45,602 nucleotides of DNA, taken from positions 1 to 45,602 of the forward strand of contig NZ_JAIWQW010000005.1 of the NCBI RefSeq assembly GCF_026122815.1, written 5' to 3'. The DNA is from Buchnera aphidicola (Pemphigus obesinymphae). GTDB taxonomy: Bacteria > Pseudomonadota > Gammaproteobacteria > Enterobacterales > Enterobacteriaceae. Shown here in pieces: positions 1 to 26,324 of this stretch; positions within the stretch are counted from its first letter, which is position 1; each line of letters opens with the position of its first letter. The notes below the pieces were generated by a model. That model did no database searches. It had not been told where the DNA came from and worked only from the letters and a program-made list of their open reading frames with translations. A program made the translations under genes and the position numbers.

Positions 1-233
1 TACCTTGTGGTATGTCTAAAGATTTATTACAACGTTTAATTCGGACTCGTATTCTTAATAAACAAATCAATTTAAAGTTATTAAATCGTGATCATCACAA
101 TTTTTTAAATAGAAAAACTATACGTGTCGGAGATCATTCAGATGTTCGTAGACGTAATGAACGTTACGTAAATTCCAAAGCAATTCGTCGAGATAATAAA
201 AATTATCTTTCATCTCGTCGTCGTAATGTTTAA
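1..233 (+). CDS. deaD: DEAD-box RNA helicase DeaD/CsdA, C-terminal end only
   Basis: This is the 3' end of a gene that begins before the window. The frame is open from base 3 and stops at 231-233, so the ATG at position 12 is internal, not a start. The stretch RTRILNKQINLKLLN matches the end of the RNA-binding domain of E. coli DeaD/CsdA (RTRILNKPMNMQLL from memory). After it comes a short tail very rich in Arg and Lys (RRRN, SSRRRNV), the counterpart of the basic RGG-like tail of the E. coli protein but much shorter. DeaD unwinds structured RNA, helps 50S ribosome assembly in the cold and can join the RNase E degradosome. A clear intrinsic terminator follows. The identification rests on about 75 residues only. 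Confidence 0.85.
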   Translation, partial: PCGMSKDLLQRLIRTRILNKQINLKLLNRDHHNFLNRKTIRVGDHSDVRRRNERYVNSKAIRRDNKNYLSSRRRNV

Positions 234-21622: not shown

Positions 21623-24600
21623 ATGAAAAGAATGTTAATTAATGCAACCCAACAAGAAGAATTAAGAGTGGCACTTGTAGATGGACAACGTTTGTATGAT
21701 TTAGATATAGAAACATCTGGATATGAACAAAAAAAATCTAATATTTATAAAGGGAAAATATCTCGTATAGAACCTAGTTTAGAAGCTGCTTTTGTTGATT
21801 ACGGTTCTGAAAAACATGGATTTCTTCCTTTAAAAGAAATTTCCAAAGACTATTTTTTAAAGTATGATACATGTTTCACTAAACCTAATATAAAAGACAT
21901 TGTAAAAGAAGGACAAGAGATTATTGTACAAATTGATAAAGAAGAAAGAGGAAGTAAAGGTGCTGCATTAACTACGTTTATTAGTTTAGCTGGTAGTTAT
22001 TTGGTTTTATTACCTAATAATCCTCGAGCTGGAGGTATTTCTAGAAGAATAGTAGGTAATGAGCGATCTGAATTAAAGTTGACATTATCTTTGCTAAATT
22101 TACCTGAAAATATGGGTTTAATTATCAGAACAGCTGGTTTAGGTAAATCTTTATCAGCACTTAAATGGGATTTAAATTTCAGATTACAACATTGGAAAAC
22201 AATTCAAGAATCTGCAAAAAAAAATTCAGCTCCTTTTTTAATTCATCAAGAAAGTAATGTCATTGTACGTGCTTTTCGAGATTATCTTAGACCAGATATT
22301 GGAGAAATTCTTATAGATAATCCTAAAATATTAGAATTAGCACACCAACATATTACTTCATTAGGTCGTCCTGATTTTAGTAATAAAATTAAATTATATA
22401 CAGGAGAAATTCCATTATTTAGCCATTATCAAATAGAATCGCAAATTAATTCAGCATTTCAAAGAGAAGTTAGATTACCTTCTGGAGGTTCTATTATGAT
22501 AGATTCAACAGAAGCTTTAACAGCTATTGATGTTAACTCAGCACGTTCTACTAAAGGTCTTGATATTGAAGAAACAGCATTAAATACTAATATTGAAGCT
22601 GTTGATGAAATTTCTCGTCAATTGAGATTACGTGATGTAGGAGGTTTAATAGTTGTTGATTTTATAGATATGACACCTGTTTGTAATCAACGTAAAATTG
22701 AAAATCAATTACGCGAATCTGTGAGACAAGATCGTGCTAAAATTCAAATTGGAAATATTTCTAAATTTGGTTTATTAGAAATGTCTCGACAACGAATTAG
22801 TCCTTCTTTAGGTGAATCGAATTATCATATTTGCCCTAGATGTAGTGGAACAGGTACTATAAGAGATAACGAATCTTTATCTTTGTCTATTTTAAGAGTA
22901 ATAGAAGAAGAAGCTTTGAAAGAAAACACTCATGAAGTACATGCTATTGTGCCTGTAGAAGTGGCATGTTATTTATTAAATGAAAAAAGAGAAGCTGTTA
23001 ATGCAATTGAAAAGCGTCAAAGCGGTGGAAAAACAATTATTATTCCGCATGACGAGATAAAAACACCTCATTATTCTGTTTTACGTATCAGAAAAGGCGA
23101 AGAAATAGAAACTACCAGTTATCGACTTCCAAAATTTCATAAAAATGGTATTATTCGGACTGTTGAAGAAGTTGTAGATAAGAAAAAAAATAAAAACTCT
23201 ATTTTCTCTACATTATCTATTTATAACACTTTTTTATTAAAAAAAACAATAGATAATAAAAAAAAGATTGAATCTCATACATTTGTAAAAAATAAATCAA
23301 TTTCTCCATCTTTATCTAGATTAAATTTATTAGAAAAAATAATTTTTTGGTTAAAATCACCTTTTTTTAGTTTTAATTTAAATTTGTTAAAAAAAAGAAA
23401 TAAAAAAATTGATTTAATAAGTAAGAAAGATAAAGATTTGAACAACGTTAATCAAATTCAAGATGAATGTCACATATATGGTAAAGAAGCAAATGACGAA
23501 ACTGAAAGTATTAAATCAAGTCAATGTAATACCAGTTTTCCTTATGAACCTAAATATGTTTCTAAAAATGATCATTTGGTTAATGTAGAAAAAACTAAAT
23601 ATTACGAATATTTTGATAAAAAAATGTTGAGAAATAAATTTAAATTAGATAAGTCAAATGTAACGTTAAAAAGAAAACGTCACGGTATAAAAGTAAAAGA
23701 TAATCAGAAACTATTTAAAATAATATCAAATTTTTCAGAAAAAAAAGTTCTTTTATCAAAAAATATGTTAAAAAATTTTTTTAAAAAAATAAGTCTGAAT
23801 AATATTTATTTAAATATGCAGTATTTACATACAACGTATCATATTAATGATTTTTTGTATGAAAAGATTATTAAATTGTATTTTTCTGAAATAAGAAACA
23901 AAATTTCTTTAAAACAAGGATATGTAATGTTAAATACTTTTAATACTATACCATATAAAATACCTTATAAAAAAATAGATAAAAAAAATGATATTTTTTT
24001 CGAGAAATCTAAATGTTCAAAATTAAGAATGTTTTCTGATAATTATACTGTTTTTAAAAATAAATCGAATTATTTTAAAAGTCCTATGTTTATTATATCA
24101 GGTGTATATTCATTAGAAATAGCTTTAGGAAAAGTATGGATTAGTTGTAAAAAAGATATATTTGTTAAAAAAATAAATGATAAAAATAAAATATGTAAAA
24201 AGTCTTTATTCAATATATTTCCTGTAAATAAAAATAACGATATATCAAGAAATCATATGATATCTATTTATCAGAATAAAATAAAATCAATTTTTTATAA
24301 AAATTATGGTAGAAAAGATAACAAAATAATAAAAAAAAAGTTCAAGAAAGAAAATACAAATATTACATTATATTCGAAAAAACCATTATTAAATATGTTA
24401 TCTTATGGAAAAACAGAAAATAAAATTCAATTAAAGTTTAAAGATAATAAAAAAAGTTTATGTGTTTCTAATTTAATTTCTAAAAATTTTAATAAATTAG
24501 AAAAAAATAAAAATAAAAAATGTATATCTAGTGCTCCAATTACAAAGATTCCAGTATCCATTCAAAATAGAAAAAAAAATCTAGTTAATAATTTAACATC

Positions 24601-24685
24601 ATATAAAAATCAGTCTGACATAACACATGCTGCAGGTGGACATGCTGCGAGTAGTGTTGCAAGCGCTCCCATTACACGTGTTTAA
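21623..24685 (+). CDS. rne: Ribonuclease E, degradosome scaffold
   Basis: The 1020-residue protein has a catalytic half (1-~530) very close to E. coli ([22 protein letters not shown]). It includes the S1 domain, the 5' sensor, the DNase-I-like site with D303 (AIDVNSARS) and D346 (DFIDMTP), and the Zn-link CPRCSG with C404 and C407. The C-terminal half is diverged and Lys/Asn-rich but keeps three islands: an amphipathic stretch at about 563-585 ([18 protein letters not shown]) at the place of the membrane-anchor helix; about 818-845 (SPMF...[12 protein letters not shown]), matching the enolase-binding segment (SPMP...SPELASGKVWI); and the last ~20 residues ([19 protein letters not shown]), resembling the PNPase-binding end. 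An extra SSAPITKIP copy lies near residue 968. It controls mRNA decay and rRNA/tRNA processing at the inner membrane. Confidence 0.97.
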
Positions 24686-24868: not shown

Positions 24869-25177
24869 TTATTTATTTTTTTTTGAAATTTGTTCTATTA
24901 GCATTTTTGCTAAACCAAAACCTTTTTTACTTATTTGTTGTGATATAACTTGATCATATATGTCTGCATACATACTTTCAGTTTCATTATTTAATAAATC
25001 ATTTTTTATTTCGCTGTTCCTGATACTTTTTAAAATAATATTTAAAAATAATCCTTCAACTTGTTTAGCTATATTTAACGTGTTTTCTTCAACATTTTTT
25101 TTCGATTTTATAATAGATATATTTGTATTTTCTATCTTTTGTATAGGATTAATGAAAAAATTAAATTTATTTTCCAT
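24869..25177 (-). CDS. flgJ: FlgJ rod-capping domain only
   Basis: The 102-residue protein matches only the N-terminal rod-binding domain of FlgJ (KNVEENTLNIAKQVEGLFLNIILKSIR ... SMYADIYDQVISQQISKKGFGLAKMLIEQI). E. coli FlgJ has 313 residues; the C-terminal peptidoglycan-hydrolase domain is completely absent. A short FlgJ is also what I recall from other Buchnera. The protein would cap the growing flagellar rod without cutting the wall. The gene is last in the flg cluster; flgK and flgL, which follow in E. coli, are missing, and rne comes next on the other strand. Confidence 0.88.
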   Translation of the reverse strand: MENKFNFFINPIQKIENTNISIIKSKKNVEENTLNIAKQVEGLFLNIILKSIRNSEIKNDLLNNETESMYADIYDQVISQQISKKGFGLAKMLIEQISKKNK

Positions 25178-25193
25178 TTTATTTGTTCCGTTT

Positions 25194-26324
25194 TTATATG
25201 ATTTCTAATTGAGCGTGAAGACATCCCGCATTTTTCATAGCTTGTAATATTGACATTAGTTCCACAGGTGTAGTTCCTAAAAGATTTAAGGCATGAACAA
25301 TATTATGAAGATTAACACTATTAATATCAGATTGTATATTAGTGGTCACGGATTTTATTTTGTTATTTTTTTTTGATGTAGATCTTATTTGTGTATTTAT
25401 GACAAATACATGAGATTTATTGGTTTTATTTTTTTTATTAATGATTACCGATATATTTTCATTGGTTATAGCACATATATCTAATCTTACTTCCTTATTA
25501 ATAACAATAGATCCGGTACGAGCATTAAAAATTACTTTTGCATCTTTTTCTGGTAGATCAATATTGATATTTTGAATATTGGAAATCATACGTATTTTCG
25601 TACTATTATTATCTGGTGTATTTAGTTGTATAGTTCTAGCATCTAATACTATAGATGAATTCGGGTAGTGCCTATTAATCGCATCGCTAATGTATTGAGC
25701 TATGGTAAAATCTTCTTGATTCAGTTGTAAATTAAATGTTTTATTTTGACCAAATTGTGTTTTTATTTCTTTTTCAATAATTGCTCCATTGCTAATTCTT
25801 CCACCGTTTAATTGATTAATGTAATTTTGACGATGATATGTAAAAGATTGATTAGTATGGCTACCTATTAAGACATTTCCTTGAGCAATAGCGTAAATTT
25901 TGTTATCTATTCCTTTTAATGGAGTCATTAGTAATGTGCCGCCTTTTAAACTTTTAGCATCACCTATAGAAGATACTACAACATCTATTTTTTGTCCTTG
26001 ATGACTGAAATTAGGCAATTCAGCTGTAACTACCACAGCTGCTATATTTTTAATTTGGACCCGTTTGTTTGATTGAATATCAATTCCGAATTGAGATAAC
26101 ATGTTATTTAAAGTTTGTAATGTTAAAGGAACATGTATAATTTGATCTCCTGTTCCATCTAATCCAACTACTAAACCATAACCAATTAATTGGTTTTCGT
26201 GTGTTCCTTGAATACTCGTAAGATCTCTAATTCTATCAGCATATATTGTGGAACTCATTCCTAAAAAAAATAAAAGAATAAATCTTAAAAGTAGTGAATA
26301 TAACATAAATATACTCTTATACAT
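25194..26324 (-). CDS. flgI: Flagellar P-ring protein FlgI
   Basis: The 376-residue protein (E. coli 365) forms the P-ring around the rod in the periplasm. A signal peptide is visible (Leu/Phe-rich, ending SSTIYA before DRIRDLTSIQG, the conserved mature start). The motifs NQLIGYGLVVGLDGTGD and SSIGDAKSLKGGTLLMTPL are kept, and it ends GCLHAQLEII, as in the family. Two in-frame ATGs (26324 and 26306) could start it; the shorter would still include the signal peptide. It precedes flgJ by 16 bp. A 165-bp gap with a strong hairpin separates it from flgH. Confidence 0.95.
   Translation of the reverse strand: MYKSIFMLYSLLLRFILLFFLGMSSTIYADRIRDLTSIQGTHENQLIGYGLVVGLDGTGDQIIHVPLTLQTLNNMLSQFGIDIQSNKRVQIKNIAAVVVTAELPNFSHQGQKIDVVVSSIGDAKSLKGGTLLMTPLKGIDNKIYAIAQGNVLIGSHTNQSFTYHRQNYINQLNGGRISNGAIIEKEIKTQFGQNKTFNLQLNQEDFTIAQYISDAINRHYPNSSIVLDARTIQLNTPDNNSTKIRMISNIQNINIDLPEKDAKVIFNARTGSIVINKEVRLDICAITNENISVIINKKNKTNKSHVFVINTQIRSTSKKNNKIKSVTTNIQSDINSVNLHNIVHALNLLGTTPVELMSILQAMKNAGCLHAQLEII

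Follow-up and report, generated by a model that had tools for sequence, protein, structure and literature searches.

The closest described counterpart of the system considered here is RNase E of Escherichia coli with its degradosome, in which the PNPase site occupies residues 1005-1061 of the RNase E tail (PMC2723993; PMC12489471). In the structure obtained in 2025 by cryo-electron microscopy (cryo-EM), residues 1005-1017 (β2) and 1048-1061 (β1) form similar strands followed by a proline motif, one RNase E tail spans two PNPase protomers, and Arg1012 and Arg1056 make salt bridges with PNPase residues 320 and 322 (PMC12489471). The two motifs together bind with low-nanomolar affinity, whereas β1 alone binds in the micromolar range (PMC12489471). 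PNPase sites named PBS1 and PBS2 have been reported in Enterobacteriales (Ait-Bara et al. 2014, PMC4435900), and F575 and F582 of the E. coli enzyme are required for membrane binding (PMC12594526). Since the tail is nonessential in E. coli (PMC12594526), it is an open question why RNase E and PNPase are joined and which of the contacts matter for fitness. Here we describe the RNase E gene, rne, in a stretch of 45,602 nucleotides from Buchnera aphidicola (Pemphigus obesinymphae), contig NZ_JAIWQW010000005.1, which in its whole length is called the window below. Buchnera offers a natural erosion experiment on the tail, which mostly drifts in these few-gene lineages while a PNPase dock and a membrane helix are held.

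The window comes from a genome (G000) of 680,759 bases in 146 contigs, with an estimated completeness of 99.78% and contamination of 8.55%. Its rne gene and the parts of it that enter the argument are as follows.

21623-24685, plus strand: rne, RNase E, an intact open reading frame of 1020 amino acids.
21623-23122, plus strand: catalytic part, residues 1-500, with S1, RNase_E_G and RNase_E_G_Thio domains and a match to E. coli RNase E in the PDB.
23141-23260, plus strand: residues 507-546, immediately beyond the catalytic part, under constraint within the window's genus (ratio of nonsynonymous to synonymous substitution rates, dN/dS, 0.16-0.23).
23309-23386, plus strand: membrane-anchor-like helix, residues 563-588 with core 568-582, placed by its position, homologous to the E. 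coli MTS, and by constraint.
24074-24154, plus strand: putative remnant of an enolase-binding segment, residues 818-844 (profile score 16.2 bits, 0 of 300 shuffles as good).
24518-24553, plus strand: upstream β2 motif of the PNPase site, residues 966-977, basic anchor K975, placed by profile, dN/dS and its structural counterpart in E. coli.
24629-24682, plus strand: terminal β1 motif of the PNPase site, residues 1003-1020, basic anchor R1019, placed by profile, dN/dS and its E. coli counterpart at 1039-1061 (PMC2723993; PMC12489471).

We propose, with a probability of roughly 0.75, that this RNase E is one half of a stripped-down, membrane-held RNase E-PNPase pair of the E. coli type, a pair that has been lost in some Buchnera. 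RNase E would be the scaffold of a reduced degradosome in which selection maintains, among the contacts, the membrane helix and a two-part PNPase dock. If the geometry of the E. coli cryo-EM structure can be carried over by analogy, β2 (ending SAPITK) and β1 (ending SAPITR) would each extend the β-sheet of a neighbouring PNPase protomer, K975 and R1019 would each form a salt bridge with the acidic PNPase patch at E320/D322 (E. coli numbering), and a single RNase E tail would keep one PNPase trimer close to the endonuclease. Neither the RhlB site nor the arginine-rich sites for RNA binding would be left, and the enolase site would be decaying. The motifs are present, they are constrained, and residues of PNPase are conserved and lost along with them; that the complex forms and is attached to the membrane, and that a degradosome works in this symbiont, is what these observations suggest.

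Residues 1-531 align with PDB chains of E. coli RNase E (phmmer E ~1e-270), and the parts of an E. coli-type enzyme, namely the S1, RNase E/G catalytic and Zn-link/thioredoxin-like segments, are all present. Beyond them, the tail (residues 501-1020) has drifted to a Lys/Asn-rich composition, as an initial annotation made from the letters alone had noticed: K amounts to 18.8%, N to 11.3% and GC to 19.5%, whereas the E. coli tail is rich in Ala, Glu, Pro and Val. With such a base composition, stops should arise at intervals of about 9 codons, and the remaining two forward frames over the tail contain 47 and 84 stops per 519 codons, yet the rne frame stays open across 520 codons. It is therefore probable that selection for something near the C-terminus keeps the frame open.

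Nine segment profiles were made from 20 tails of larger-genome members of the family, E. coli included and G067 omitted. Tails of small genomes were scored against 300 shuffles of their own sequence; for a second Buchnera genus, g74, in which all 36 genomes gave an RNase E match, 200 shuffles were used. The window's own genus is represented by the window's genome, G001, G002 and G003; G001 is without a tail, which leaves three full tails. Among these three, significant matches were obtained for the enolase site and the PNPase motifs only. The AR1 and AR2 RNA-binding sites, the RhlB-binding site and the middle PNPase-contact stretch (1018-1039 in E. coli, searched with a profile of E. coli residues 1024-1040) gave no significant match in the three tails or in the 36 tails of g74. 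Two scans of genome contigs for relatives found none.

The β1 and β2 matches were equalled by 0 of 300 shuffles in the window, G002 and G003, and β1 of the window scores 19.8 bits; in G002 the best match of the β2 profile fell on β1, and the β2 stretch itself is identical to that of the window. Both motifs have the form [S/A]AP-x-T-[K/R], the second one standing after an AGGH element, and the dock is present in three of the four genomes of the genus. Against Pfam PF12111 (PNPase_C) the window tail scores 14.4 bits, below the cut-off of 25; here a short model is set against a divergent Buchnera sequence. The initial annotation had reported a PNPase-binding-like C-terminus, a reading borne out by the profile match, the low dN/dS and the conservation of the partner, and a partly repeated SSAPITKIP / SAPITRV element near residue 968 and at the end, which we recognise as β2 (SSAPITK ends at K975) and β1. 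Since the second copy has the motif form [SAT][AS]P-x-T-[KR] in 11 of the 21 larger-genome members, which include E. coli, measure 2.7-5 Mb and are assumed to be free-living, the repeat is ancestral, and a local duplication was rejected as its origin. The distance between the two basic anchors is 44 residues in all three genomes of the window's genus with motifs, in all three of g110 and in 18 of the 21 larger-genome members (43 in one more, two being unscorable). Elsewhere it is 39 (G153), 47 (G066) or mostly 45-46 (g74). Given this range of 39-47, a fixed 44-residue ruler was set aside; the constraint is loose at most.

Selection on the motifs is evident in both genera. Between the window and G003, the catalytic half has a dN/dS of 0.09 and the free tail one of 1.04, against 0 for β2 and 0.15 for β1 (few codons each in the motifs). 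In g74, which provides the firmer test and where all 36 RNases E are long (896-973 amino acids), the profiles match β1 in 36 of 36 and β2 in 34 of 36 genomes with 0 of 200 shuffles as good, the β1 match of G076 being doubtful, so that inspection by eye leaves β1 in 35 of 36. In this genus dN/dS, taken over 16 disjoint species pairs, is 0.17 for β2, 0.38 for β1, 0.39 for the membrane helix and 0.84 for the free tail. Conservation peaks above 1.5 standard deviations in 35 aligned g74 tails fall on the membrane stretch, residues 591-608, β2 and β1, and when 406 ten-residue segments are ordered by nonsynonymous difference, the 16 lowest lie on β2 or β1 and the 17th on the membrane helix. The PNPase dock is thus the best-conserved part of the RNase E tail. 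One or both motifs are also kept in two other Buchnera-like genera, in G112, G151 and G152 (g110) and in G153 and G021 (g19). In the window's genus the four islands are jointly more conserved (window, G002, G003) than under any of 520 shifts of their pattern along the tail. The initial annotation had named three islands, the membrane, enolase and PNPase segments, and profiles and alignment place them where it did; residues 507-546 had escaped it. For these residues dN/dS is 0.18 between the window and G003, and since the corresponding g74 stretch has a value of 0.69, the constraint is not general.

The membrane helix is the second element under selection. Its core, residues 568-582, is identical in the three full tails of the window's genus, and its dN/dS is 0.17 between the window and G003. 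The membrane segment named in the initial annotation was located at residues 568-585; the 18-residue windows with the highest hydrophobicity in the tail overlap this stretch, and AlphaFold2, given the single sequence of residues 541-610, predicts helices at 569-577 and 580-609. The residues aligned with F575 and F582 of E. coli are I574 and F581.

PNPase and enolase are both encoded in the window's genome, and its PNPase has the acidic anchor residues E320, D322 and D328. A search of 44 genomes gave a PNPase in every one. Among the 43 small genomes of this set (200-900 kb, Buchnera and others), 14 carry one or both PNPase motifs on RNase E, and the other 29 carry neither. Of the dock-bearing 14, ten have the two motifs together, G021 and G024 have β2 only, G076 has β2 with a weak remnant of β1, and G091 has β1 only; the β1-labelled profile matches of G021, G024 and G076 and the β2-labelled ones of G091 and G002 sit on the other motif. 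The 29 dockless genomes comprise 26 in which RNase E, full or cut short, lacks the motif (G104, whose RNase E is split in frame into a 304-amino-acid piece, is counted as dockless) and three without an RNase E match (G013, G062, G102). E. coli and G017 stand outside the with/without counts and the column rankings and enter the tree test as dock-bearing; the PNPase of G156 was not found in the fetched stretch, and that of G153 is outside the PNPase counts. The leuA of G000 is nearest to Buchnera plasmid records (64 of 86 matching records in a collection of plasmids alone; listed Buchnera matches 70-76% identical) and is close to none of the named plasmids in it, which supports a Buchnera origin of the window short of proof. 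For other lineages, the nearest named leuA sequences are those of Mindarus for G152 (81%), Neophyllaphis for G021 (93.5%), Myzus for G076, a member of g74 (82%), Greenidea for G001 (73%) and Ceratoglyphina for G055 (100%).

Every one of the 14 dock-bearing genomes has acidic residues at all three of PNPase positions 320, 322 and 328, as against 6 of the 29 dockless ones (with one genome per genus, 10/10 vs 5/28). Because all columns share one tree, all 550 PNPase core columns were ranked by the same association: 320 comes 2nd, 532 4th, 322 8th and 328 25th, the top five being 540, 320, 41, 532 and 39. In a genus-weighted ranking with g74 added, 320 is again 2nd and 532 4th, with 322 12th and 328 37th. 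None of 20000 conservation-matched random column triples reaches the skew of 320/322/328. In 34 further g74 PNPases, A39, F41, H532 and A540 are kept in 34 of 34 and the acidic trio in 33, so that the trio is acidic in 47 of 48 dock-bearing genomes overall vs 6 of 29 dockless small genomes (p=4e-13, uncorrected for kinship). As to numbering, PMC12489471 prints Asp320/Glu322 where the annotated E. coli PNPase reads E320/D322, and its His522 does not match the annotated residue, A522; 532 is the only His within 488-555. Columns 39, 41, 512 and 540 are conserved with the dock and often changed without it, and are not among the contacts given in the excerpts of the published work; they may be part of an extended docking surface.

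G001, of the window's own genus, is a case of loss. Its RNase E is cut at 429 amino acids and the whole tail is gone. Downstream, a remnant in another frame retains 29% identity and has 11 stops within the aligned stretch; these features point to real decay. None of the three frames of the remnant gives a β1, β2, enolase, AR2 or middle motif above 0 bits. A poly(A) frameshift was rejected as the cause, as no homopolymer of at least 8 occurs from 300 bases before the stop to 200 after it. The PNPase of G001 is changed at four of the top five dock-associated columns (A39S, F41L, H532Y, A540S), whereas among 433 other conserved columns 21 are changed (p=4e-5; the ranking was made without G001). 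With the top ten columns the figures are 4 vs 21/428 (p=0.0014), and with the top 20, 7 vs 18/418 (p=3.9e-5). The initial annotation had staked its reading on conservation of the islands in sister lineages: the PNPase motifs and the membrane helix are conserved in them, and G001, in having lost the tail, goes in part against it. The tail is therefore not essential in every Buchnera.

It is tempting to propose that, of the scaffold functions of RNase E, Buchnera gives up PNPase docking last, this contact outlasting the helicase, RNA-binding and enolase contacts, and that its repeated loss has left footprints on PNPase at A39, F41, E320/D322, H532 and A540; we regard this as an even bet. If true, 320 and 322 would be the published contacts, 39, 41 and 540 an unreported docking surface, and 532 maybe the paper's His522. 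In this way, repeated losses of the dock with matching changes on PNPase would single out individual residues for testing in E. coli.

A number of observations weigh against the proposed pair. On the PNPase side, residues 13, 160, 169, 197 and 199, which make published between-motif contacts, show no association with the dock, and when they are added to the matched-column test the result is 2552/20000 and no longer significant; the RNase E stretch that makes these contacts is undetectable in the Buchnera tails scanned. On a tree built without the dock-associated PNPase columns, six independent pairs give for PNPase 320 against dock a mean of 3.4 in the same direction, 0 in the opposite and 2.6 without difference, and the sign test on them is not significant (median p=0.25), the pairs being too few. 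Six dockless genomes keep the acidic trio, five besides G001, which has D320, D322 and D328; conversely, the PNPase of G183 has N322 together with intact RNase E motifs. The basic anchors are not universal in g74 either: the β2 Lys is Gln in G185 and G164, and the β1 anchor is non-basic in G170, G172 and G173. Moreover, G066, G024, G118, G123 and G131 keep a motif and are not shown to be Buchnera, and G091 is linked to it only via a distant leuA match. As for the membrane, the enterobacterial MTS profile does not recognise the window stretch (-3.4 bits) and matches 0 of 36 g74 tails, and the hydrophobic moment is unexceptional given the composition (p=0.61). The initial annotation had called this stretch amphipathic and anchor-like; its position, predicted helix and constraint agree with an anchor, its hydrophobic moment and profile score lend this no support, and it is homology and constraint that suggest membrane anchoring of the window RNase E. 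Because the full prespecified contact set fails the matched-column test and some dock-bearing genomes are not shown to be Buchnera, we have lowered our confidence in the pair to the value given above.

Does the window instead specify a complete working degradosome, with the membrane helix, enolase, PNPase and a DeaD helicase all under selection? Enolase and deaD are indeed encoded, DeaD (CsdA) joins the E. coli degradosome in the cold (PMC5818665), and the enolase segment, matched by its profile at residues 819-841, is recognisable in the window, G002 and G003, in the last of these near its E. coli form (33.5 bits). It also differs less than the free tail between the window and G003 (8/27 vs 237/387 residues, p=0.0013; p=0.1 in the comparison with G002), and its profile matches 18 of 36 g74 genomes. 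However, its dN/dS is about that of the free tail, 1.03 between the window and G003 and 0.91 over the 16 g74 pairs, so selection on the segment is not supported; its core ranks 120 and its other half 287 of the 406 g74 segments. The site is missed in five of five genomes of the two other Buchnera-like genera (G112, G151, G152; G021, G153), and gives no profile match in G066, G024 and G091, whose identity is less sure and which keep PNPase motif(s). With AR1, AR2 and the RhlB site undetectable as well, we judge a complete degradosome unlikely, and in the reading that we prefer the enolase site is decaying. The enolase-binding segment of the initial annotation is thus recognisable and not demonstrably selected, and the purifying selection it claimed for the islands applies to the PNPase site and the membrane helix. 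Nor do we give much credit to the idea that the islands are mere leftovers that have had no time yet to decay. That a sister in the same genus has already lost the tail speaks for such inertia, but neighbouring residues have reached dN/dS of 0.84-1.04 over the same time in which the PNPase motifs stayed at 0-0.38, and the motifs occur in 35-36 of 36 g74 genomes. For the PNPase motifs and the membrane helix inertia is already contradicted, and as a general explanation it is very improbable.

The PNPase pattern itself could reflect a general degeneration of dockless genomes and not the loss of a contact. Such genomes are indeed more diverged from E. coli on average (0.641 vs 0.703 identity), and the tree-based pair test does not reach significance; still, at matched divergence the acidic trio is kept in 14/14 dock-bearing vs 5/16 dockless genomes (p=8.7e-5), conservation-matched columns are without the skew, and G001 lies inside the window's genus. 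General degeneration therefore seems to us a rather poor account. A further suggestion is that selection on the C-terminal motifs serves protein stability or a partner other than PNPase. It strikes us as highly doubtful, in that the motifs match the PNPase-binding residues of E. coli (PMC12489471) and that the matching PNPase residues vary with them. The RNase E-PNPase pair remains the explanation that we favour.

A scan on the enolase side put position 378 (Ala) on top, present in 8 of 8 genomes with the segment vs 1 of 21 without; it was not used, because the group with the segment is closer to E. coli throughout. In three small-genome members of the family with higher GC (0.41-0.45), G092 (L037), G086 (L039) and G041 (L042), the opposite pattern is seen: AR2 and the enolase site are kept and the PNPase dock is lost.

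Shortened RNases E are found elsewhere too. RNase E is cut at 396-472 amino acids also in G129, G047, G094, G122 and G061, and G055, a named Buchnera lineage by leuA, has an RNase E of 518 amino acids without the dock. In five genomes, G001 (L135), G047 (L129), G122 (L131), G094 (L133) and G129 (L134), the protein ends at 396-429 amino acids with loss of the small domain and the tail, presumably around the Zn-link, and these are possible minimal forms of RNase E. G013, G062 and G102 (400-500 kb, estimated 95-99% complete) give no RNase E/G match at E 0.001 and keep PNPase.

The initial annotation placed a deaD helicase at the start of the window and saw in it the possible helicase of the degradosome. 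The 3' end of the gene is there, with only some 74 codons inside the window:

12-233, plus strand: 3' end of deaD (DEAD-box helicase), about 74 codons, an open frame sharing 13 of 24 residues with E. coli DeaD in its C-terminal part.

This fragment has no Pfam match. The rest of deaD may lie on contig C104, in the frame that follows pnp, where a DEAD-box match (G000:C104:34537-35037) lies ~1.6 kb after the pnp domain match. It is the single DEAD-box match better than 1e-30 in the genome and, standing beside pnp, is read as deaD; hence RhlB was not found in G000. Of the 43 small genomes, 38 have one DEAD-box match better than 1e-40 and five have none: G008, G009, G052, G125 and G134 are without a strong match to a DEAD-box RNA helicase, the best being 1.9e-25.

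The surroundings of rne are rluC - rne - flgJ/flgI, compared with rluC - rne - flgL in E. coli. On the minus strand at 24869-26324, flgI scores above the cut-off and a flgJ-like frame of 102 amino acids below it. E. coli from which the RNase E tail has been removed cannot assemble flagella (PMC12399333), and a link between the rne tail and the neighbouring flagellar genes is possible.

How, then, does this RNase E compare with described ones? Among the matches listed in a literature search, no title deals with the degradosome or RNase E of Buchnera; the main text of PMC4435900 does not contain the word 'Buchnera', nor does PMC12489471 contain 'endosymbiont' or 'spacing'. With the E. coli protein the window enzyme shares the catalytic half, the position and order of membrane helix, enolase segment, β2 and β1, and the distance of 44 residues between the anchors. 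Unlike E. coli, it has no detectable AR1, RhlB site, AR2 or middle PNPase stretch, the gene for RhlB was not found, the β2 anchor is Lys in place of Arg, and the enolase segment appears to be decaying. Of the gammaproteobacterial microdomains MTS, AR1, HBS, AR2, EBS, PBS1 and PBS2 (PMC4435900), the window islands correspond to the MTS, the EBS and the two PBS. In Buchnera, as described from this analysis, the RNA and RhlB sites are lost first, the enolase site next and the PNPase site last. What remains resembles in composition the degradosomes of Streptomyces and Anabaena, for which RNase E and PNPase, and neither helicase nor enolase, are listed in Table 1 of PMC5818665. In contrast to these, the state of the window would have been reached by eroding a scaffold of the E. 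coli type, and it retains an E. coli-type docking motif.

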